From NCBI GenBank assembly GCA_002812745.2, contig NCSJ02000519.1, positions 1 through 21,058 of the forward strand: DNA of 21,058 nt, read 5' to 3'. Made by a program: the position numbers and the translations under genes. Shown here one piece after another: positions 2,722 through 17,997 of this stretch (position 1 is the first letter of the stretch; each line of letters opens with the position of its first letter). This DNA comes from Scytalidium lignicola. Lineage: Eukaryota; Ascomycota; Leotiomycetes. Under the pieces are notes generated by a model. The model did not search any database. It was given only the letters and a program-made list of their open reading frames with translations, and was not told the origin of the DNA.

Positions 2722-4580
2722 CTAGACTGTTGTTGTATCCTCCTCCATCCTCTCCAATACGGTATTGACTACGACCCTTGACTTCGACTGCTCTCTGGAG
2801 CCGGAACTGGAAGAATCCGTATTTGCGATGCTGTCATTTCTGTCCTTCCTCTCACGCTCAAGCTCTCGGTAAGATCGTGTGCCCATTCTTGGGTCGCTCC
2901 AGATTGTGGTCTCAACCATCGAGTTCTGGACCATGGGTTGTTGGAGCGATTGCACTGTGAGATCCAAGCTTGCGAGTGTCGAGTCAGTGGTAGTGTTGAT
3001 ATTATGGTTGGTGTCGACTTTTTTGGAGGAGGAAATGGCCGGCATTGGGATATTTAGATGAGTCCGAAATGTAGAGAAGAAGTTACGGTAGCCAATTCGA
3101 GGAGCTTGTTCATCGCTAGATGAAGGTTGGATGAGGTGAGATGATGAGAGGATAGGTTCTAATCGGCGGGGAGAAGATGATGGTGTGATCGTGTCTAACT
3201 CATGAGATGGGAGATTGTTAGGGGTCGATGGACGTTCTAAATCAGCCTGGGTGGAGTGTGCTTGATGTGCTGCGCTATGTGAGTTTGTGAAACTAAGGTG
3301 ATCGAAGGTTGGCTGAAAACCATCTCTGCAGGCCGAGCTGAAAGAAAAATTAGTTATTTGCTCCGTAACATTTATCACAGTGTGTATAATAAATAACTGG
3401 AGATAGAATAGTGGTCATACTTGTTTAAACTTCCCATGTCATCGCTGCCTTGTCTACTCTTGTCAAAGTATTTCATCGCCCGATGGACAAGATTGAAACG
3501 ATGAGTCCATCCACTAGTTGGGCCTCTTCTTCGCTGTCTAGGCTGCTTTAGACTGGGCCAGATTTTCCCAAAGCCGAGCTTGACAAGGAAATCCCGGTAT
3601 ATCTCAATGGCTTCATCTCCAATGCCGTAGAAGAATACAATTAAAAAACCCATGGAGATTGGTAGCCATCCATCCCATTGAAGATCAGGGGCATCCTCTA
3701 AGCTCAAAAAGATGATCGGCTCCCATGTGGCAGGGTCGTGGATTCTCGAGAAGGAATATGGTATCCAGGGAGAGCTGCCTTTCATGTTGACATAGAGAAA
3801 GTAAAACATCACTGGAAGATAGATGATGAGAAGAGACAGGGAGAGCATGAATAGCTTCAGGAATCGGGTAGCACTGAGGCCAGAGCCAGTACTTGACAGT
3901 GTATTGGAGAACTGGTGTCGATGTTTACGCAGGCGGATAACTACCAACACTAGGAGATAAAATCAGTATCTGAAAGAGGATTCTGAAATTGTGAAACTGA
4001 AGGGATACGTACAAGCGTAATATGCGTTAATAACTGCGAAAATCGGCGCCCACATATGGACAATAACGATGCTGGGCCAGCTGTTGTCAACTGAATTGGC
4101 GCAGCCTGTGATAGTAACTATGATATATCTATCTACCTGGACGATATAATATAGACCTAACTGAAGCACCGGAATACCGAGGCATATAAAGAGGTCGATG
4201 GCGATCCTGCGATGTCTCATGGCCGGTGTCTCTAGGAGGTTGGCGTTATCGGTGTCAACTGCCTTAGCCAGATTTCTAGAGACGCAGGCCAGACAACTAG
4301 CAATGGCGGTTGTAATCGGAGATCGAAGTTTGCCCTCGACATCACAGAGGCCGGCTCCGTTCCACCATTTGGAGAAGTCGTCAGTTGGCCAGAGAGCAGC
4401 ATTGATAAGGTCGAAGAAATTTTGGACGACAATGCAGGTGACCAAGAGGCAGGTGGCTATGTTCTTTCTCCGCCAGAGCAAGTAGAATGGAACCGCACAC
4501 ATTACCATTGCTATACCGGCAAAGAGTGGTAGAGCTACAGCATTGGGCGTGAGACCGTAGTCTGGAACGGTGGTATTCAT
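2722..4580 (-). CDS. ste3: Ste3-type a-factor pheromone receptor (GPCR)
   Basis: Plasma-membrane receptor for a lipidated peptide pheromone; couples to a heterotrimeric G protein in mating. Exons (minus strand) 4580-4013, 3949-3421 and 3337-2722; introns 3950-4012 (gtacgt..cctag) and 3338-3420 (gtatga..tttcag). Total 1713 nt, 570 residues. ATG 4580 opens MNTTVPDYG; the upstream in-frame codon at 4646 is GTG and was not used. Seven membrane segments lie at about residues 13-36, 41-63, 86-108, 126-149, 169-193, 221-241 and 273-293. Ste3 family marks include GLCDVEGKLRSPI before TM3, SRNLAKAVD after it, and GCANSVDNSWPSIVIVHMW leading into TM5. The last exon (from about residue 366) is a Ser/Thr-rich cytoplasmic tail of about 200 residues, typical for the family. 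Intact, no frame damage. Not beside a recognisable MAT gene or pheromone precursor here. Confidence 0.92.
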
Positions 4581-5843
4581 CTTGACTGAAATAGTTCTAT
4601 GGTTTGAAAACACTATCCCAAGGAAACGAGGACAGCCTCTCGACACATATATGTAGTCTTCCTCGACAGACAGTGATCCTCAAGTAGAGATGCAATTAGA
4701 CAGTCCTGCGGAACATGCAATAGTGGGACGAGTCCAATACCAACGAAAATGACAAATCAGAGCCTTCTTCGAGTAGAAGAGTAGAACTTCGGAGGTACTG
4801 ATTGACAAAGTTTGTGACAAGTATGTGAGAAAGTGGAACGGTATGTGAAATAGATTGGAAGAGACAAACAGATTTCAGAGAAGATTGAGACATTTGAGGC
4901 GGTAGCAGTTGACCAGTCTCAATAGCATCATGACTCTCAATAGCGCTCAATAACGGGAGTATGTGATGAGTCTCACTGACGCCGCAAAACACCACCGCAT
5001 GCTTATAACAAGTCGGACCGGCAATGCCAATGGAACAGGCACTATAGCTGCATGACTGACAATAAGATGCGGGCCAGAAGATACAGAAACATGATCGCTC
5101 ATATCTGGCCGACATTAATCGCATTATGTGCGCGGCTATTGAGAAGAGGGCAGTGCCGAGACAGTGTTCTTTTCATAGCAAGCACTTTACTTGTGGTTGC
5201 TGCGCGCTTTTGTGAGGATTTCTATTGAGGCCTCAATTGAGGATAGTGGCCGAATGCAGGTGAACTGCAGCCCTTGGACCAACACGAATTGTCAAAAGAT
5301 CGTCGAAATAGAAACAAGACAATTGTGACCCCTCAATAATGACAAAGAGGGGCAAGCAAGATGGGAAAATCAAATTGCGAGCGAGATTGAGAAAAAGAGA
5401 GTTTCACATGTTGTTACTTGGCTACAGATCACTCGCAGGATGAGGTCTAAGAATACAGACTAGACTCTCTACAACAGGCGATTTCAACACATCAGAGCTT
5501 GTTTTAGAGCTTGAAATGTCAGCGACGATCTTCTTAGAAGTGATAGTGGCGCATGAATTTGGGCATCCAAATCCTCCATTCCGTTAGGATGTCTTGGCTT
5601 TGAGGAACGATGAGAAATGTTGTAATGGACGCCTTTGTGTGTTGATTATTGCAGGCTGTTGGTTCCTTCCGAGGTTTAGCTTCTGCATCACGTGTTAAAC
5701 AACAAGCTATTCAAGAGGGAAAAATATCCCCAGCCAACCAGCATCTCAAGATCATAGTCGTATTTAGTTTATTCTTACTCTATTTGCTATGATATGACCT
5801 AATATCGGGCCTGTGGACGGGCGCCCGCAAAGCCATACTTTGG
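4581..5843. other. Upstream region of ste3 (1.26 kb, no supported gene)
   Basis: Lies between the ste3 start and the hydrolase stop; both genes run on the minus strand, so this holds the ste3 promoter and leader. An ATG-started open frame of 142 codons (5124-4696, minus) begins MRLMSARYERSCFCIFW, is Cys-rich early, and matches no family I know; it may be chance or an upstream ORF. Palindromes: ACAAAGTTTGT at 4805-4815, ACAATTGT at 5319-5326, ATTGAGGCCTCAAT at 5224-5237. Confidence 0.5.
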
Positions 5844-7528: not shown

Positions 7529-9019
7529 TTATTTTTTAAGAACTCTGCTCTGATGGCGGTCTCCGGCAAGACGAGTATTTGGTGGGTATTTTCCGCTCGC
7601 TGGTTTCCGGCTTCTATCCGAAGTTGAGGGACCAACAGTATCCCTTTTACTAGAGTTGATCAATAACATCGTCGCCTTGAATGGTAGACTAGTAAGAATA
7701 GCGAACATGTGTAGGGGGAAAATAGCAGCTGCCATAGCCCAGTCAAATAGGACAGCTACTATGCCATGAGAAGCATGTCGAGAATTTGCCGCTGCTGCGG
7801 CGAGTGAAATAGCATCGTTTACTTTCGATTCCAGTTCAGATAGCCTTGACTCGGTCTGAAAAGTTTGAAGAGTTGCGCGCTTCTCATATCTTCGAACAGC
7901 ACGGTTTAGGGCATCAAGATCTGGTTGGAGTGATCGTCGAACTTCTGCTGCAATGCTGTTTGGTTGCTTGCCGTTCAAAGTAGACTCAGCTCCTGCATCC
8001 TCAGCTGGACCTTCTACGGTAGTGAAAGCTCGGGTTTCTAGGGTATCTAATCGTCGTACAATATCCGCGTGGGTAGCTGCTGTTACGACTGCTTTGCCGT
8101 TGGAGCTAGCATAAGGATTTGCATTCACGATCCGCTGCAAATGTAATGTCCTTGATTGAATGAGCTTCACCAAATGTCCTATAGGGCGTAATTCCGAGGC
8201 GAGAAGGAAGATTGTTAGGTTATAATTAGACACGAGGCCCTCCGATGGTCGACTGAGCTGCGATCGAATAGTATGCAATAGATATGCGCCAAGTACCGGG
8301 AAAAGGAAGCACGATAATAAGGCAAACACTTCATGTAGGTAAAGTTCTTTTAAGGCGGTCTGGTAAACTGGTAGTCGTCGAACTTCATGCGGAGCTGGGT
8401 CCGTGGATGGCACCTCCTCTGATCTCTCCTCCGAAACCTCACCAGGCAACTCTTGTGGCGATTGCAATCCATGGTCTCCTATTCCTTCCTCCGCCATTAT
8501 ACTCTCGCTATTTTGCTCCTCCCTCAGCCGTATTTCTTGTGCCGAATGATACCAGGTCCTGTTCATTCGTCAGTATACTAGCCAAGTCTTCCTAATGGGT
8601 TTGAATTCTTACCATGGTATCCGTACGGACCAGTTAAGGAAAATAGCAGCTAGGCCGAGCAGCGTTATATCGGTGACAACTGAACTTCCATTCTGAAACA
8701 TCATCCCACCGATAGCAGGAAGCAATGCAAATGCGAGGGGCGCGGAATCCCAATGCGAATCATGTTTGACTTCAAGTTGCGGATCGTGCGGTGTGGGAAG
8801 TAAGAGGTCATCAGTCGTCCTCCGCGCCTCATTAAGAGAGAACTCAGAAAAGTTCGAGCTCCTCCGTCGTTTTATCTCTGGACTACCATCGAGGGATGGG
8901 TTAGAGAGGCGAGTCCTCGATGGTTTCTTGCGAAGTCGCAAAGATTCATCGACAGTTTGAGCCCTCCTAATGCCTTGAACGGGAGGCGCATTCTTTGTTG
9001 ATGTAGGATCGTCGGCCAT
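7529..9019 (-). CDS. Unrecognised multi-pass membrane protein with coiled coil
   Basis: I do not recognise a named family. Exons (minus) 9019-8613 and 8558-7529, intron 8559-8612 (gtaaga..aacag, 54 nt); total 1437 nt, 478 residues. ATG 9019 (MADDPTSTKNAPP) was chosen because the longer reading begins with TTG at 9121. Residues 1-90 are polar and basic with RRR and Ser-rich patches. Hydrophobic stretches lie at about 93-108, 112-130, 211-233, 249-258 (weak) and 402-436. A probable coiled coil lies at about residues 300-390 (LDTLETR, LDALNRAVRRYEKR, ESRLSELESKVNDA). The splice yields VRIPWTWYHSAQE, an aromatic stretch that looks like a conserved core. Probably an organelle or endomembrane protein, inferred only from topology. 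It diverges from the H3-like gene, sharing a 755-base upstream region. Confidence 0.75.
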
Positions 9020-9774
9020 GCTCGCGCGCGCTGAGATTGTGAGCTTGGGCCAGTGTGGAGTGGCGGAGAAGTGGATGCGATGAAGAAGGTAGGATGGCTT
9101 TTCCGGCGCGACTGTTTTCAAACAATATCAACTTCGATATAGATATTTATAAGAGGCGCTGTGAGCATCATAGTGACTCGGCATCCTTGGGGAGAAGCAG
9201 ATCAGCTGCTGCGCGCGTGTGCTGAAGTGGTTTCAACTCAGCTGGCAATTAGCTGGCAGCGTGTTGGCGTCATTATGCTCCGTACCTGCAACGAATCGGA
9301 GAGTTACCGACCAACCAGGAACAAGCACCCAAGGTCCAATCGTGACGTCTTGGATTTCAACAAGCATTCTATAGCTTCAAAACAATTTGGCAGTGTCGTA
9401 GCCATGAAAATTTATATTGTATATATACCATTAGTATAAAGACTAAGTGTGTAGAGATGGGCTCTGAATATCTCAAAGCTTTTATAAAAAGTGGCTTGTA
9501 GTTTACCGCTTCAAAGTAAATAAGCAAATGGGAAAGGTATCACAGAGTACAAACGGCATGGTATTGGTGCTGGAAAGGCAAGCGACGTGAAGTCGTGTTT
9601 ACCAGTCCCTCGGGATCACCTTTGATCCCTTTCTTTGCTTACTAGATACAAATTGCAACTATACACATACAGTACACACCCGGCTTTCTCTCTCGCAAAC
9701 ATCAACTTCTCAACTAATCTTATCTCGTACGTACCCTTTCCACACCATGTGATAATTAATATACTAACCGTGAG
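9020..9774. other. Divergent upstream region
   Basis: About 755 bases between the starts of the membrane-protein gene (minus) and the H3-like gene (plus). TATAAAA is at about 9482. From 9650 to 9740 the plus strand is C/T- and CAAC-rich, as in many fungal 5' leaders. A possible leader intron runs from GTACGT (9727) or GTACCC (9731) via TACTAAC (about 9762-9768) to AG at 9774, just before the ATG. No protein-coding signal is supported. Confidence 0.4.
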
Positions 9775-10287
9775 ATGAGAACGGCGAAAATGAAAAGATA
9801 TGCAAGCTTAAGATCCATTGGAGCCGGATCAGTTTATAGAAAGGCCCAGAAACCTCTGAAGTTTAAACTTGGCAGTAAGCAGATCACCACAACAAGCATA
9901 CTATGATCAAACTAACTCTACAATAGCCCGTACAATCACCAAGATTTGTCCTCCAAATGCCTCTCAGTTGTCAATTGCAAAATCGCCATTTGGTCGGCTA
10001 GTTCGTCAGGTCACGGAAGTAGATATTGGTAAAAAGCACGTTAGATTTGAACTCTTGGCATTGCAAGCCTTGGAAGAGGTAGCAGAATGCATTCTGATTT
10101 CTGAATTGGAAAGTATGGATGCACCTGAAATAATTTCCACGTAGCTCTTTAAGACTAATAATAGATAGTGGCCAACTCAGCTGCTAAAAATGCCGGAAGG
10201 GTCACTCTGCAAGCAGAAGATATGCAACTTATAAGAAAACTCTGCTCTATTATGTTTGGAAAAGAGTATCCTGGTGGCTTGAGATAA
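9775..10287 (+). CDS. Highly diverged histone H3-like (CENP-A-like) protein
   Basis: Predicted histone-fold protein of the H3 family. Exons 9775-9874, 9927-10112 and 10169-10287; introns 9875-9926 (gtaagc, ACTAAC branch site, aatag) and 10113-10168 (gtatgg, ACTAAT, gatag). Total 405 nt, 134 residues; canonical H3 has 135-136. Marks in order: basic tail MRTAKMKRYASLRS; KPLKFKLGT (27-34) matching H3 KPHRYRPGT before helix alphaN; AKSPFGRLVRQV (51-62) matching RKLPFQRLVREI; VRFELLALQALEEVAEC (72-88) matching LRFQSSAVMALQEASEA; EMANSAAKNAGRVTL (95-109) matching EDTNLCAIHAKRVTI; DMQLIRKL (113-120) matching DIQLARRI. Loop 1 is two residues longer than in H3, as in CENP-A. The other in-frame ATG at 9790 is an alternative start. 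AATAAA at 10367-10372 could be the poly(A) signal. Being the organism's centromeric H3 or an extra paralogue are both open. Confidence 0.8.
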
Positions 10288-11223
10288 TTATGCATTGCAA
10301 AACGTTTTAGACAGTGCTAGAAGGCGTGTAACTGGTGGGAAGTATACAGGTTAAGACGATAGCCTTAATAAAACATGGGAGGACCTTGACACTTTTTTTT
10401 CAAATATGGTGAACCTTTGAAGACTGATACTTCTAGCTCTTTGCGTGGTAATTCCTACCATAATTGACGAACAAAATGTCATATATATTTGCATACTTCG
10501 GGTGAATACCATATTTGCCAATAATTCCCAGTAGTGTCCAAAAATAGAGATAGAAACTAGGAGATCTAACAATCGAAGCTGTGAGTGCATTTCAACTCTT
10601 CACCACATCCTGTGATTTAGGCCACCTGAGACCGTAGAACCTTCCTAAGCCTCCAGAAGTTGATGAATTCGACAATAGCACGAACATATTGACACATCCG
10701 ATTAATTCATTGAACTTTTGCAAATGAACATTAAAGAAGCTATTAAGCTTGGGATAATTAGGTTCTCGGTAAGTGAGAGTGGGTTTCCCCAAAGAGCCTA
10801 GAGTTGGCGAGCGGGTCCCCGCGGGAGCTGCCGTAAGCCTGTAAGAAGCTTAAAGCTTGACTTGCAGTAGGCATGCATGGCGCGCCCCTTGCCCAGAAAC
10901 GAACACTTGTCACCGCCATATACCAGCGGAAACATCCACAAGCAAGTATCCATATCGTCATGTAACCAACAATACTCGAAGGCTAGCCACATTGGATAAA
11001 GTTATTGTATTAAGAGCGGTTATTAGACAACTTTGACTCTTTTTTTTTTTTGCTTAAGAATTTTCCATCTTTAAATCGTAAACTATGCTTTCTACCTTCA
11101 AATTGGGCTACTAATATCATCCAGATAAAAAAAANTTTTAAAAAATTTTTAAAAAAAACCCCTTCCAAAATGTCGTAAATTTCATCAAAAAATAATCCGA
11201 GTATATTTCCCTTCATAGAAACC
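10288..11223. other. Convergent intergenic region
   Basis: About 940 bases between the H3-like and S41 stops. AATAAA at 10367-10372. A GC-richer island lies at about 10797-10930, with a small hairpin and CCCGCGGG (10818-10825) plus GGCGCGCC (about 10879-10886). An A/T homopolymer patch with one N lies at 11125-11160. Open frames on the minus strand here mostly start with non-ATG codons and show no family features. Confidence 0.5.
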
Positions 11224-12735
11224 TCACAATTCATCTCTGCCTTGAAGTTCTATCACCGCAAGCCTTCTAGCTACCTCATGAGCATCAGTCGTATCTTTCC
11301 AATCCCCCTGTCCAGCAATCACATCGCTTTCCACACCAACACCCTTCCAACTCACCCCAGTGACTGAATGCACGGCTCTAAGGCTAGGAACACCGGCCAT
11401 CCACCACCGCTTTCCAAATTCTTCTTCACAGATATACTTCACACTTGGGTTAGCACTTCCAAAACCAGTAGTCGCATTATTCCCTTCTCCGATAATAGTA
11501 GCGCGCTTGAAAGCTTGGAGGTTATACGCCATATCCTCACCTGCGCCGAAGGTCGTGTTCGAAGTGAGAACGAAGACTGGTTTAGATGTTCCAAGAGGTT
11601 CTGTGCCTCCTGGAAGTAGTTCTAAGGGGGTAGTGTACATAGAGCGGTTAACCTTTCCAGAGTTATCGATGAAGTCAGTGAGATGACGACCATTGGGAGA
11701 TCCGTCGTAGAGGAAGTAAGACAGAATAAAGGCCACGGTATTCGAATCTCCTCCGTGATTACCTCGTAAATCAATAATAACAGCATCTGCACTTCCAACA
11801 CTGCTAACGATCTCACCCACAGCGGCGAGGATCTGCTCCGAGTCACTCGCATACTCAGGGTTTGTAGGAGCAAAGCTATTGATAGGCAAAGTCGCGATGG
11901 TCCTTCCTGGAAGCGAGCTTGTATCGAAGGAGATATTCTTGTCGAAATGGAAATTTCTTTCCTGCAACTCTTCAAATAGCTTCCTTGGACTCTCTAGTTC
12001 AGCAGCGTCGCCGGACTCGGTTCCGATAAGAGGATCGGAGAAAGCAATAAATACACCGGCAGTGTGATTGAGACGATGCAGAGTAGAAAATAGTTCTATG
12101 GAGAAATCTTGGCTATTGGTGATATTATCGAAAGTCCCATTTTGCATGGACTCCTGCAGGGTCGATACTATCGTTGCGCCAATCTCCACGTCGATATATT
12201 CCCGTTGAATAATCCCAGTAAGCTCCTGAACCACGGCTTCTCTGAGTGCGGGCGTCAATGGTTGCAGTCCCTTCTCATACGCCTTTCTTCGCGGATCATC
12301 ATTCGGCACTAGATGGAGAGGGATATTGCCAGGCTTGAAGAAGAATCTGGTAGCCGGGAGGTTATCCTTCGAGACATCAACACTCATTTCAGCACGAAGA
12401 TAACTCGCCCACTTCTTCCCTTTTAGTAGAACAGTGATGGAGGATGGCACTGAGCTGTTCAACACCTCAACGACATCAAACCCTCCGGAAAATTGCTGCA
12501 TCGAAAAGTCATTTTCAACAGAGAATACTGGAAGCCCTGCCGCTTCCGTGAAGTTTACCTCGTGGTATCTTGTGATCGTTTCCTTGTCACCGGAATTATG
12601 TGCGGCCAGCCATGTTGAGAATTGTATTCCTGCGGGGTGGTCTGTTGGCACCACTGGTTCTCCGGCCACACTTGGGGTTTCGAGTTGAGGTACTAGTAAC
12701 CCAGAAACACCAAATATATACTGGAGAAAGCGCAT
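11224..12735 (-). CDS. Secreted S41 / IRBP-like protein, likely without its catalytic Ser
   Basis: Single exon, 503 residues, ATG 12735. Residues 1-18 (MRFLQYIFGVSGLLVPQL) look like a signal peptide, and about nine N-glycosylation sequons (e.g. N61, N93, N223, N267, N363, N393, N420) fit an extracellular protein. The C-terminal half is a tail-specific protease (TSPc/S41) domain: SADAVIIDLRGNHGGD (315-330), KPVFVLTSNTTFGAGEDMA (385-403), then LQAFKRATIIGEG (406-418). In S41 enzymes the nucleophile is Ser in a T-F-S-A-x-E context; here the codon at 11547-11545 is GGC, so Gly397 sits there. Lys410 and the GE turn are kept. It may be an inactive homologue or bind ligand like IRBP, unless another Ser (S392) serves. 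No PDZ domain is visible. Upstream lies a transposon, 317 bases away. Confidence 0.85.
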   Translation of the reverse strand: MRFLQYIFGVSGLLVPQLETPSVAGEPVVPTDHPAGIQFSTWLAAHNSGDKETITRYHEVNFTEAAGLPVFSVENDFSMQQFSGGFDVVEVLNSSVPSSITVLLKGKKWASYLRAEMSVDVSKDNLPATRFFFKPGNIPLHLVPNDDPRRKAYEKGLQPLTPALREAVVQELTGIIQREYIDVEIGATIVSTLQESMQNGTFDNITNSQDFSIELFSTLHRLNHTAGVFIAFSDPLIGTESGDAAELESPRKLFEELQERNFHFDKNISFDTSSLPGRTIATLPINSFAPTNPEYASDSEQILAAVGEIVSSVGSADAVIIDLRGNHGGDSNTVAFILSYFLYDGSPNGRHLTDFIDNSGKVNRSMYTTPLELLPGGTEPLGTSKPVFVLTSNTTFGAGEDMAYNLQAFKRATIIGEGNNATTGFGSANPSVKYICEEEFGKRWWMAGVPSLRAVHSVTGVSWKGVGVESDVIAGQGDWKDTTDAHEVARRLAVIELQGRDEL

Positions 12736-13052
12736 TATGATGATTGCGAGGTAAAGTCAAGAGATGTTAATGTTTATTGACTGAGAAAATTTAAGATAAA
12801 AATGTCGTTTACATTAAGTATCTCATGAGGGTTTTATGGTTCTGCGGCACAGTTCGGTGAGTAAAGGTGTAACCTGTTGGGGTTGTTTGTGAACCTTGCA
12901 ACGTTAGGCAGCGAATGTGGGAAAATAACTGGACGATATTTGCAGTGAAATTCGGCGAAATAAGTCCGCCTACTTAATCAGGAGGAATTTATAATTCTCA
13001 TGTTCAACTGTTGTTCCTTAAGGTTTATACACGATGCGCTTTGGTACCTTTA
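12736..13052. other. Upstream region of the S41-like gene
   Basis: About 317 bases between the S41-like ATG and the transposon edge. No gene or clear motif was seen. The transposon therefore inserted within or just beyond this gene's promoter. Confidence 0.4.
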
Positions 13053-13100
13053 ACGTAAATCCCTGTCCAAAGGATCACCCCACCCAAGGGATCACTTCCC
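13053..13100 (+). repeat. Left terminal inverted repeat (48 bp)
   Basis: Begins ACGTAAATCCCTGTCC and ends GGGATCACTTCCC. It matches the reverse complement of 14892-14939 at 47 of 48 positions; the one difference is base 13072-side A versus G in CCAAAGGATC / CCAAGGGATC. It contains GGATCAC twice (13072-13078 and 13089-13095), a possible double transposase-binding site. Confidence 0.95.
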
Positions 13101-13159
13101 TTCCACCTTTGCATTCAATACCAAATATTCAAGCAACAACAACGTTTATTTGAATAAAT

Positions 13160-14824
13160 CTAATGACTAGCTAAATCAGGATATTTGAGTCTATTATGTC
13201 CTACATTTCCACATTCTGAGCACTTTGGTGGCCGTCGTGGTTGTGCTTGCAAAGGATTGGTGGATGTTGAAGAATTGGACCCCTCCACTATATTTGACAC
13301 CATAGCACTTGATTGAGCTAATTCTTGAGCCTCCTGCCTTGTCAAGAAACCTGTATAAACTAACTGTTTCCTAGATCTACGTAACTTTTGTTACATTAAA
13401 GCATTTTCAGCTTGTAATCTCTCGTTATCCTTAACCATAAATATAATACTATGCATAGCCATTTCACATCTCTTGAATGCTTGATTTATAGTTGTTTTTA
13501 TAGGAGTTGTAGGGCTATACTGTTCCTTAAGTAATTACTGAATAGATTGAGATTGCAAATGCAATTGAACAAGGTTATAAGGTGTTTATGGAACTTATTA
13601 TACTCTAGAATTATTATTATGAGTACTCCTTGGAGATATAGATATTTGATCAACCTAAACATACAATTTAGCTAGTATATACTTTGGTTTATAAGAAATC
13701 AATTTAGTAATTGTAAATCTATTCTGAATAGTTGTTGATTTGAAGGTTTGCTAATGTATAATTGGATATATCTCCAGGAAATCTTCCTTGTCAATATGTT
13801 GAATTCCATTATACACTTTGTTTTCAAGTTGAGTACTATACATACGTTTGAGAATTGAAAAACAAGTTATATCAAGTGGTTGAAGGAGATATAAGGAATA
13901 CAAAGGTATACAAATTAGAACAATTTTATGTTAAGAATAAAATAAGTCAAATTCAAGTGTTATATAACTTTCATAACTATCAAGAACTAACATGTGATAT
14001 TAACCTTTAATTTTTTCTTTAATAGTAAGTTCAAAGGGTTTTTCAAGTTATTCAAGGCTAATTTAATTATTTGTTCATCCATTATTACTTTGTTTATTTC
14101 TCTAATCTTTAAGTAACAGATTACTTAAAGCTAATTGATGATGTTTACCTTTAAAAATAATTAAAGGTAGTAAAACCTATTCATCAACATTAATTAATTT
14201 AATAATTATAATCTATTCACAATTCTTAAGTTGTAATAATAAAGGTTTTTTAAAATATTTAAAGATTATAATTACTTTTATAATAACAATTATACTTATA
14301 ACAAAACTTGTTTCATCGAAATTGTAGATATCCTCGTCTAAGATTCCATATTGAAGTTTGGTTTCAAGGGACTGGTTAAACTATTGCTGAATAAGCTTTA
14401 GATCTTCACATTTAGCTTGTTAATAACTATATTTGCGAATATATTTAGTAGTTAATTCAACATGATAGCTTAAAGATCGTTAAACCTAGTTTTTACTTAT
14501 AAGTGAAGGAGAAGTAGATTCACCCTGCTTAGAAATCAAAGTATAAGCTATTACTTGCACTTATAAAGGCCTAGAAGGCATTCCTCGGTTTCCCATAAAG
14601 ATAATCCATTATACTAGCGATTCCTCTTCAATTTGAGTTAACTTAAACACTTTGGTGTAAGTTGTGAAAGCTTCAGGGTGTCCATGGAGTCGTTTATGCA
14701 AAGTAGTATATGGAACATCAAAAGAACGCGTTGCAGCCTGAAGTGACTTGATTTTGTTGTTTTTAAACGCGTTTATAACTAGAATGATTCTTCCTTCTTG
14801 TTGTACAGGTAGCTTTTTAGGCAT
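13160..14824 (-). pseudogene. Fot1/pogo transposase, RIP-like decay
   Basis: ATG 14824 opens MPKKLPVQQEGRIILVINAF, then KSLQAATRSFDVPYTTLHKRLHG, the HTH/psq DNA-binding region of pogo transposases. The frame stops at 14611-14609 and 14563-14561. At both places the expected residue is Gln (VQW, PLQV) and the codon is TAA, the product of CAA after C to T in CpA. Farther on, YGILDEDIYNFDETSF is the segment with the first catalytic Asp (codon 14317-14315), and PLIIFKGKHHQ (about 14131-14165) is another pogo signature. The last frame, 13345-13160, ends in PPKCSECGNVGHN, a zinc knuckle whose final Cys has become Tyr (KYPD for KCPD). No functional product is expected. Confidence 0.9.
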
Positions 14825-14891
14825 TGCAACGTGTTTTGGTTGAAAAATAATCAATTCAAATTGTAGGTGTTGATAAATTCAATAATCTGAG

Positions 14892-14939
14892 GGGAAGTGA
14901 TCCCTTGGGTGGGGTGATCCCTTGGACAGGGATTTACGT
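14892..14939 (-). repeat. Right terminal inverted repeat (48 bp)
   Basis: Reverse complement of the left repeat with a single mismatch. The outer end is followed by TA at 14940-14941. Nearly identical ends beside a heavily mutated interior suggest that the end positions were poor mutation targets or that the insertion is not very old. Confidence 0.95.
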
Positions 14940-14941
14940 TA

Positions 14942-15983
14942 CAGGAATGAACATTTTGAAAGATATGTAACCAGTTCTATATGGGTATGGAGAGGAATCC
15001 ATAAACAGACGTGACAGAGGTACATAAACTTATGCTGGGAGTGAATAATCTGCTTAAATAGTTCACGAGATAATCTTGATAGTTACGCCTATTCGAATAT
15101 GACAAAGGTAGCAGTGAGCAGAAACTAAAGCAAATAACAATCTTTCAATAAATTGTTGTCTGATATAGAATAACCTAAGCCAGTATTAAAACTCTTTCAT
15201 CCAATAAACCCCCCAACCCCCCCTTTTCATGAGCTATAATGTGACTTAAAGAAACAAATAAACACCAGTGTCTCCCAGGTTTTTGCGCGTAAAAAAAGGA
15301 TAAAATCGCCGCTCCACTCCAATTAGACAAATTAACCTCTTTAATAACCCCACCCTCTCCTAGAGAAATCAAAACCATGTCCCCAAAAAAAGGTTGGTCG
15401 AGAAAATAAAAAAAAATATTCCTTGTCATTTCATTGTAATCATGATATAAGACGTTCGATCCCAAAATATCCCAAATCCCTAGGCTGAAAAGTTACAGCC
15501 CATTACCCATCGTTAAACACGTACTTAAGCAAGTACTAAAGCACTTCCGAAATAAAAGTTCCACGCAGTGAATGGAATATAAATGAATAATACTGTTTTC
15601 TCTTCCTGCCGTGCTGGAGCAGTTCTGTGTAAGAATATAAACCGTTTTGACCGTTGCAAATGAACCCTTTCCTAATCACTGTTTTGCAACAAACNAAAAG
15701 TCGCAAGTTGCTTCAGATGCTGAAGTCAGCCAAAATATAGTGAGCGAACCTGATTATCGTAATTCAAAATAGCAATGCCTGTAAGAGGTCCAATATGTCT
15801 CGATATATTGTAGATATGTTTGGAAGAATCGCAAATTAACGGGTCGTGTATTTGGGGTATATTGTAAGACGAGTATAAAGTTGAAAGAGGTCCAAAGTGA
15901 GACGAATATCAATGCTAAACAGTTCCTAAAAATGAATATGATTCCATCAGAGAGGCTGAAGTCTGCCGGATATCCGGCAATCC
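14942..15983. other. Intergenic region between the transposon and the DUF2841 gene
   Basis: About 1 kb, A+T-rich with A, C and T homopolymer runs (15210-15420) and an N at 15695, so base quality may be poor. A 96-codon minus-strand open frame (15465-15175) starts with TTG and has no family features. The part next to 15984 is the DUF2841 3' UTR. Confidence 0.5.
15964..15979. repeat. 16-bp perfect palindrome just after a stop codon
   Basis: TGCCGGATATCCGGCA, GC-rich in an A+T-rich setting, starts four bases beyond the TAA of the minus-strand DUF2841 gene. As RNA it could form a stem of up to eight pairs at the beginning of the 3' UTR, although with almost no loop. As DNA it could be a dimeric protein site. 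The palindrome is seen; function unknown. Confidence 0.35.
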
Positions 15984-17997
15984 TTAACCATGATGAACAT
16001 GTTTCACATGGTTGTCATCTTCGTTCCCAGCGTATGGGTTATCATGCATGTATTCGTGAAAACTATTGTGTGTCTGCAGTTGGTGAGGATGGCCGATACT
16101 AACGGTTCTCATTTGATGACCTAAAGCGGGAGCCGTGGTATCGTACTGCTGCATTGATGTTGGAACACTGTCATAAGTGGGTTTGTTCATAGAAGGAGGT
16201 GGTAGAAGGTGCTGTTGTGTATTTGGTAGAGGGAGTTGATATCCTACGTTCGGTGGAGCAAGTGCCGATTGAGGTGAAGAGACATAATAGTTCGACGAGA
16301 TCGGTCCATTGCTAACCATATTGTTTTGCCAGCCATATATATTCTGAGACTGATTCTGATAGGGTTGTGAACTATAGGCTCGTCGATTAGGATCTTGAAG
16401 TATCGGACTTTGTTGTTGATAACCTAGAGTCACAGGACGCGTGCTGTATGAATTATCGGCAAATTGAGGCTGGCGCATGCTATGGAACAAGCTGCTGGAA
16501 TCATCTTCTTGTCTCGGCTGGTGATGCATAGATGGGCCAGGCTGCGTAGAATGAGGAGATATTTGGCTGTCGGGACTCGGTATTGTTGGCTTCGTGTCGG
16601 ATTCATCAGGCTCTGAGCCACCATCATCCTCCTCTTCATCCTCCGAAACATGACCCTGTCTATTGCGGTCCATGACGGGCACAACCGTATCATCATCTAT
16701 GAATATGATTAATCAAGTGAGACCAATAATCTCCAAACGAAATCTGGGGAACATACCAATCTCGCCGTTCTTAAATCGTTCTTCAGCCTTTGCAACCTTG
16801 AATATTTCCTTGAGGAAGACCTTCTTTGCTGCATTAGCAGGATGTGCCGAATCGTTGAACCAATTACCCATGGCCTCCATGGTCTTCGCTTCCAGAGTCT
16901 TCACATCAAGATTCCATCTCCTGACAGATTGGTGCTGCCTTTCCGCAGGTTCTATAATCATTCGTAAAATCTGAACAAGCAACAGTACACGTTCTAGACA
17001 AAAGGTTGTTAGACTCCTAACGTAAACTTGGTCCTGGGAAGAATCTGACACAACTCACCATGTTTATACAAGTGGTCTGGCTCTTTGTGACGAATAGCAT
17101 TCTCGCCTGTAGTGGGAGGCCACCAGGGAGGAGCTTTGGCAGCACCTCCCGTATACGGATAGTGGGTCTGTTTCTTTGGCTCGACGACCTTGACGAATAT
17201 CTTGCCTATTATTTTACAAGCAGATTGTTGCAGGTCCTTGAATCTAAGATGGTAAAATTTGGTCACTTCCTTCTCATCACCAATCCTTAACTGTTGAGTG
17301 CTCTGTACAACGACCGGTGCAGCGTCTATGGAACGCTCGCGGCGCCTTCCAGAATTTTGACCATAGGACCGTTTTCTCCTTTTGCCCGAGGTATCGGAGT
17401 CAGAGTCGTATGATTGCCCACGTTGATACATGCGGCTCCCTGACTGGGACATCCTTCTTCTTCGAGCTTTCTGGTACCCATTTCCACCATCGAAATCGAA
17501 CTCTCCAGAATCACCTTCTTGACTGTGAGCTGTTTGGATAGTCAGTGACGAGCTCTTCGTATGAAAGGGCAGTGGAGTAGGGGTGATTCACTACCTGAGT
17601 CGGTGAATGGCTCCCCGAGTGACCGTTGGACACCTCGGCGAAAACCGTGCTTGAATTGATCAGTGAAGATCTGGGGCTGAAATGGCGTCAGGCTGTGGGA
17701 GGTGTAGGTTTTCTCCTCTCCATTTTCAAGAGACACTATAAGAGCAAAGTCCTTGACTGGCAAGCCGACGCAGTCTCTTAATGCTGTCTCGATACTCTGT
17801 GGATAGATATTAGTTTATTTGCCACATGGCATTTCATTATTGTTAAGACCCACCAAGCTCCTAGGATGCACACCACCACCGGTCGAAGATCTGTCATCAC
17901 ACAGTGACGGATCTTGGAATCTCTCTAGAGGATGCCATAGAGGGTCCCGTGGAGGGCCAAACCCCTTACGAGGCAAAGGATAACCCGAACCCACCAT
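15984..17997 (-). CDS. DUF2841 / YDR124W-like helical-bundle protein
   Basis: Matches the fungal family known as DUF2841 (YDR124W-like, which includes a protein of the Aspergillus fumigatus hrmA-associated cluster); molecular role poorly known. Exons (minus) 17997-17854, 17796-17595, 17529-17059, 16993-16757 and 16696-15984; introns of 57, 65, 65 and 60 nt, all GT..AG. Total 1767 nt, 588 residues. ATG 17997 (MVGSGYPLPRKG) is the first ATG in its frame; the earlier opening at 18093 is TTG. Core domain about residues 203-350: VTKFYHLRFKDLQQSACK, VVEPKKQTHYPY, PPWWPPTTG, RHKEPDHLYKHERVLLLVQ, KVFLKEIFKVAKAEERF. Basic GKRRKRS and GRRRER stretches before it could be nuclear signals. After it come an acidic stretch (EDEEEDDGGSEPDE) and a long Gln/Asn/Pro/Ser-rich disordered tail. 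Composition suggests a nuclear regulator; that is inference. Confidence 0.88.

Follow-up and report, generated by a model that had tools for sequence, protein, structure and literature searches.

A strongly diverged, spliced histone H3-like gene of Scytalidium lignicola with relatives carried by hAT-type elements

Gene structure and surroundings

The window, the whole stretch of 21,058 nt of Scytalidium lignicola DNA analysed here, corresponds to contig C465 in the 46.85-Mb, 664-contig assembly that was searched. The published genome comprises 826 contigs and 47.7 Mb, and was obtained from Ion Torrent reads with genes predicted by AUGUSTUS (PMC6256649). An H3-like gene (H3L) lies on the forward strand of the window at nt 9775–10287, running from an ATG at 9775 to a stop codon whose last base is 10287, and encodes a protein of 134 aa. 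Exon 1 (9775–9874) specifies a tail that reaches up to KFKLG. The frame has neither the ARTKQ nor the ARKS motif found in the tail of canonical H3, and the protein is therefore described as H3-like rather than as canonical H3. Exon 2 (9927–10112) carries a broken alphaN helix (CPPN), alpha1, a long loop 1 and most of alpha2, while exon 3 (10169–10287) supplies the end of alpha2 (MAN), loop 2 (GRVT), alpha3 and a C-terminal extension, MFGKEYPGGLR.

Both introns are in phase 1. Intron 1 (9875–9926, 52 nt, GTAAGC...TAG, with CTAAC within) interrupts the codon corresponding to H3 Thr45, and intron 2 (10113–10168, 56 nt, GTATGG...TAG, with CTAAT within) that of H3 Asp106, splitting the M codon of MAN. 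Retention of intron 1 leads to a stop after 43 residues, and retention of intron 2 to a stop after 105. Intron 2 has two AGs four bases apart; use of the upstream AG gives an early stop, so that the downstream one is required.

The spliced frame is 100% identical to a GenBank entry of S. lignicola, 'hypothetical protein B7463_g12269, partial' (P0001), and the gene had therefore already been called, though not named. The first-pass annotation had described a complete H3-family gene with two canonical introns at this position, and its coordinates proved exact. It had also expected the gene to be missed by simple ORF calling. Taken one exon at a time, the gene is indeed difficult to detect: a search of the whole genome with the Pfam histone model gave 12 matches at E ≤ 0.001, and the gene is not among them.

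The H3L gene is adjoined by a gene for a 503-aa S41 peptidase on the reverse strand (11224–12735) and, on its other side, by a gene at 8609–9121. The reverse strand also carries a STE3-type pheromone receptor gene (3378–4646, matched by Pfam STE3 in two parts, at 7.3e-56 and 4.7e-24) and a YDR124W-like helical bundle domain (17009–17452; PF11001, 9.5e-29). An AT-rich stretch at 13049–14942, with a match to HTH_psq, is likely a pogo-type element; it is 78% identical to C296:11828–13721, which points to the contig being part of this genome.

Histone family and predicted fold

The 134-residue protein matches the histone model PF00125 at 5.8e-15 (56.1 bits, the cut-off being 26.4). A sequence search of the PDB returned 178 sequences at E ≤ 0.1, the best being a histone H3 chain (4jjn_A, 8.4e-12). 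The best 60 of these 178 are all H3, H3 variants, CenH3 or H3/CENP-A chimeras, and among these 60 the best match is of H3 type, not H4, H2A or H2B. An AlphaFold2 model built from a 65-row alignment contains the three helices of the fold (alpha1, residues 52–67; alpha2, 76–103; alpha3, 111–125), with block pLDDT values of 87–96 from about residue 51 to 130; in the alphaN region pLDDT is only about 60. All 50 rows listed by Foldseek for this model are nucleosome or histone-complex entries, nucleosomal H3 among them, with TMt up to 0.84.

The histone HMM match and the H3 fold predicted for the single protein bear out the earlier claim that the resemblance to H3 goes beyond chance. The alignment to H3, which had been called nearly gap-free, is so apart from one residue missing in alphaN and a loop 1 that is longer by two residues. 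Chance similarity and mis-splicing were rejected in view of the Pfam match, the stops that follow intron retention and the exact junctions. The gene at 9775–10287 is a strongly diverged, spliced member of the H3 family.

Canonical H3 and CenH3 of the same genome

Among the 12 histone-model matches in the genome are a canonical H3 (C110) and a CenH3 fold (C444). Both have the H3 histone fold in common with the window protein, but their introns lie elsewhere: those of canonical H3 are in the Arg8 codon and after Ser121, and those of CenH3 fall within alpha1 and the tail. They also differ at their C-terminal ends, which read RRLRGERS in canonical H3 and RRIRGAWGGLG in CenH3, in contrast to the MxGxEYPG tail of the window protein.

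The first-pass annotation had considered that the gene might be the centromeric H3 of the fungus and had proposed looking for a conventional CenH3 elsewhere in the genome. Strong divergence agrees with that reading, as does loop 1, whose two extra residues relative to H3 are a CenH3-like trait. A tryptophan after the loop-1 arginine is typical of CenH3; the C444 fold has this Arg-Trp (MRWQ), whereas loop 1 of the window protein reads VRF and lacks the tryptophan. A clade of the window protein with three CenH3-type rows (S. lignicola CenH3, shark CENP-A and the metagenome sequence P0020) was rejected (p-AU 0.025); a clade with the C444 CenH3 alone was not (p-AU 0.066). The tree described below places the window protein with Leotiomycete H3L proteins instead (97/94). 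Given the conventional CenH3 fold on C444, the missing tryptophan and the tree, a centromeric role is so improbable that we count it as ruled out.

The CenH3 fold gene itself (C444:275768–276129, L037) has ten consecutive A immediately ahead of HRYKPGT, which may reflect a homopolymer error in the Ion Torrent reads. The join of its N-terminus to an upstream exon is uncertain by one base, while the fold itself is open.

H3-like genes carried by hAT-type elements

The closest relatives of the window gene in the genome are H3L genes carried as cargo by repeats, the hAT-type elements. Six copies of family A were compared; their similarity is 86.7–92.1%, and one pair can be aligned over as much as 5.7 kb. 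The element is about 5.95 kb long: the copy on C488 can be followed for 5945 bp, from TAGAGTGAGGAATGGGG at its left end to the point where its right end is lost, and the right ends of other copies read, inward, TAGAGTGCGGAATGGGG. The A end sequence occurs at 18 places in the genome with at most one mismatch, against none for a reversed control. In all six copies compared H3L lies less than 1 kb from the right end, the C488 copy being without its last bases.

The 8-bp flanks of eight right ends and six left ends include four identical pairs (C642/C405, C377/C321, C81/C512 and C482/C139), the two ends of each pair being on different contigs. About 0.0007 identical flanks are expected by chance (48 comparisons, 1 in 65536 each), and the paired flanks are as would be left by the 8-bp duplication of a hAT. 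The simple reading of paired ends as one element cut by a contig end does not fit their interiors: in both pairs with comparable interiors (C482/C139 and C377/C321), the contigs are only 87.8% alike inside. The short-read assembly therefore appears to have mixed copies within repeats, so that none of the elements can be taken as whole with certainty.

A hAT transposase on C339 of the same genome is matched by one stretch of element A at 57 bits, whereas 50 shuffled elements reached at most 33.5; once a low-complexity filter and composition correction were applied, this comparison gave no hits. The C339 transposase has a dimerisation domain (4.2e-23) and one stop in its DUF659 part. Pfam searches found no hAT family in any of six RIP-damaged element pieces, and all four DUF659 matches lie on other contigs. 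The second family, B (C46, C151 and C379), has coding stretches related to those of A (79 aa, E 2.7e-6, from one of three A copies to one of two B copies). In both families H3L is on the strand opposite the transposase-type stretch, near the opposite end. An assignment of the family B (C151) and C377 stretches to hAT by way of the C339 transposase was withdrawn, their 34–35 bits being about the best shuffled score. From the terminal repeats, the paired 8-bp flanks and the one transposase match above the shuffled controls, we take the kin of the window gene to be cargo of hAT-type elements.

A-type H3L is present on at least 10 contigs, with a weak piece on C87 (Xylogone protein as query), and B-type H3L on at least six contigs and on C4 (C4 sequence as query); these counts are lower bounds for contigs, some of which may share one element. 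The closer reading covered the H3L contigs other than C399, C87, C35, C544 and C521. The locus on C4 (76.4–77.2k, L032) is a further kind of H3L, with introns as in the window gene, a GC content of 0.41 and no strong sign of RIP. Its first exon has an in-frame TGA upstream, unless a further intron exists, and it may be a second open stand-alone H3L.

Pairwise differences among the six A copies comprise 1245 transitions and 35 transversions. C to T changes fall mostly before A (682) and T (431), compared with 73 before C and 59 before G, which is the signature of RIP (repeat-induced point mutation). The TA/AT ratio is 0.65 in the coding sequence of the window gene against 1.08–1.13 in the six A copies, and (CA+TG)/(AC+GT) is 1.84 against 0.93–1.05. 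The window gene is free of RIP signs.

Relationships of the H3-like genes

Intron positions were compared among the S. lignicola loci (window gene, C642, C4, C46, canonical H3 and CenH3). Both introns fall in the same codons (H3 T45 and D106), in phase 1, in the window gene, in C642 of family A, in C4 and in C46 of family B, and at these positions neither the canonical H3 nor the CenH3 of S. lignicola has an intron. In the window gene and C642 alike, the MAN after intron 2 arises from a split A|TGGC codon. The two proteins are 41% identical and have EMAN and GxEYxG in common; past the end of H3 their tails read MFGKEYPGGLR and MTGFEYSGNNK, both containing MxGxEYxG.

H3L proteins of the same kind were found in Xylogone sp. 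PMI_703, Botryotinia convoluta, Monilinia laxa, Bisporella, Stromatinia cepivora and two Pseudogymnoascus, and a looser relative in Eremomyces. One protein search scored the 7992 candidates sharing most words, and no close orthologue of the window protein is among the best 120 of its 7599 hits. Features of the H3L clade present in the window protein are A63, ELEMAN at the end of alpha2 (E-[L/F]-E-[M/L]) and MFGKEYPGG (MxG...G). The proteins of Xylogone (P0009), Monilinia, Stromatinia, Bisporella and Pseudogymnoascus likewise have R63 replaced by P or A, and the Leotiomycete relatives show EFEM or EFEL after alpha2 and a C-terminal MxG...G extension. R63 is replaced in all 10 H3L rows (P in eight, A in two), and by P also in the H3L of C4 and C46. 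ARKS is absent from nine of the 10 rows, being present in Pseudogymnoascus WSF 3629, and ARTKQ is kept in the Bisporella protein. The window protein is far more diverged than the H3L of Xylogone, Monilinia, Stromatinia, Bisporella and Pseudogymnoascus, which are known here as proteins alone.

In a first tree of 31 rows, the window protein formed a long branch in no starred set, and Stromatinia fell outside the group. A second tree had 28 rows, with Botryotinia, P0054 and P0050 dropped as long or odd. Here, eight Leotiomycete H3L rows, including the window protein, lie on one side of a branch with support 97/94, and the full set of 11 H3L rows, to which B, C4 and Eremomyces also belong, is united at 91/91, in both cases with a bootstrap that had not settled. 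Pairing of the window protein with the hAT-A and Xylogone proteins reached only 53/61, and its branch (2.25–2.6) is the longest of the clade. Neither constraining it with canonical H3 (p-AU 0.07) nor with the B clade (p-AU 0.21) led to rejection. An H3L clade is thus supported, with the branching order inside it unsupported. The alternative held out by the first-pass annotation, a further H3 variant, is supported.

The distribution of H3L bears on a rival to transposon descent, namely that H3L has come down vertically in Leotiomycetes as a host H3 variant and was captured by hATs, the window gene representing the host line. The H3L proteins of Xylogone, Monilinia, Bisporella, Stromatinia and two Pseudogymnoascus would suit such a history. 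What speaks against it is that B and C4, which like Eremomyces fall outside the clade of Leotiomycete H3L, nevertheless have the same introns, the H3L of B also lying opposite a stretch related to the A transposase. A window branch unlike that of a conserved host line tells against it as well.

The locus and signs of coding constraint

A 2.65-kb stretch around the window gene has itself as its sole match in the genome at E ≤ 0.01 and is thus single-copy. The A-type end sequence has no match in the window at up to three mismatches, and no hAT transposase match to the window was found. The best 25 of 39 inverted pairs within 9000–11400 include no pair resembling element ends. With no such repeats among these pairs and no A-type ends in the window, a short non-autonomous hAT around the gene was rejected, although one bounded by ends of another sequence is conceivable. 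Lacking an A-type end and a hAT match, and being single-copy, the gene is therefore kin of cargo and not itself cargo today.

Between the window gene and C642, dN is 0.53 and dS is saturated (3.3), and codon positions 1, 2 and 3 are changed at 49, 31 and 57%. The third-position value is raised because C642 is itself damaged, but against C4 the pattern is the same (48, 30 and 58%; dS not computable). Had the sequence drifted without constraint by 0.5 substitutions per site, it would have stayed free of stops with a probability of 0.006. By these comparisons, the window gene appears to have been under coding constraint in the past. Its single-copy position between other genes, its open frame without RIP signs and this constraint would also be natural for a host line of an old H3 variant.

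The same data bear on whether the gene is a relic, meaning a cargo copy whose expression or selection has ceased and whose frame is still open by chance. Its long branch, the loss of the tail motifs, the PP in alphaN and the lack of an orthologue among the matches listed would fit decay. Against this stand 134 codons without stop or frameshift, two introns that can still be spliced in frame, the absence of RIP signs and the second codon position being the most conserved. We regard a relic as rather unlikely.

Predicted properties of an H3-like nucleosome

Arginines R49, R52, R53 and R63 and lysine K56 of H3, which we take to be DNA contacts or sites of marks near the nucleosome entry, are replaced in the window protein (R49, R52, R53, K56 and R63 by T, C, P, N and A). 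R69, R72, R83, R116, D123, L126 and L130 are kept, and H113 is N. The surfaces for H4 binding and H3–H3 contact, which presumably include R116, D123, L126, L130 and H113, are largely kept.

The protein would accordingly be expected to take H4 as its partner and give rise to a variant nucleosome, which could not bear H3K4, K9 or K27 marks. A weaker grip on the DNA ends is predicted because R49, R52, R53, K56 and R63 are replaced while R69, R72, R83, R116 and D123 are kept. Judged from its residues, an H3L nucleosome would be looser and blind to K9/K27 methylation.

Carried by a transposon, H3L would dilute silencing marks and so weaken silencing, an action that may be likened to that of the plant VANC proteins, as far as the portions available of PMC5735166 and PMC10398659 describe it; a settled copy would serve as a host H3 variant. 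That fungal hATs carry an H3 without the K9/K27 silencing sites as an anti-silencing weapon, and that S. lignicola has domesticated one as a mark-resistant stand-alone variant, is a speculative proposal that we consider improbable as a whole.

Origin and comparison with known systems

We favour the reading, with a probability of roughly 0.55, that the window gene is a copy of hAT cargo H3L that settled in the host genome, was spared RIP and has been maintained there. A hAT-type element would have carried the ancestor of the gene, one cargo copy would have come to rest between host genes, and this copy would have escaped RIP and then been retained. We infer this descent from two things: A and B both have H3L with the same introns, opposite related transposase-type stretches, so that their common ancestor was likely already cargo, and the window gene falls within the A side of the group. 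With no A-type end and no hAT match in the window, the descent is not something seen at the locus. This tells against a vertically inherited host variant as the source, a history that we hold to be possible but clearly the less probable one.

Carriage of H3 by hATs has been published for Dothideomycetes, where the main texts describe it as gene capture (PMC3538342, PMC6710886). Since hATs took up H3 there, repeated capture is possible, and may apply rather than a single cargo ancestor. According to the main text of PMC3538342, Pyrenophora tritici-repentis has 26 very similar hAT H3L copies, 21 of them identical, with ESTs. Those copies are mostly open and lie inside hATs, in contrast to the RIP-damaged cargo of S. 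lignicola and to the window gene, which is outside any recognisable hAT. Pseudocercospora fijiensis and five other Mycosphaerellaceae carry 135 to 784 H3-like copies per genome in hATs, by the main text of PMC6710886, and resemble S. lignicola in their 8-bp duplications and RIP-inactivated H3-like copies. They differ in that their captured copy is intronless and the sole open gene is the original H3, whereas S. lignicola H3L has two introns foreign to the host H3, and the diverged H3L is itself open.

For hATs with H3, the literature searched yielded these two papers. No description of an H3 variant in Leotiomycetes was found in the literature searched; the sole match was, by its abstract, on another subject. 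As far as this search reaches, a hAT-borne H3L in a Leotiomycete, with two introns of its own and a Leotiomycete clade in which R63 is replaced, is new, and so is a diverged, undamaged, open H3L member outside elements.

The H3L cargo thus forms a diverged lineage of its own, with introns foreign to the host H3 and relatives in several Leotiomycetes. Two ideas become testable with it: that carrying a histone closed to silencing marks may benefit a transposon, and that a host may keep a transposon-borne histone as a new variant.
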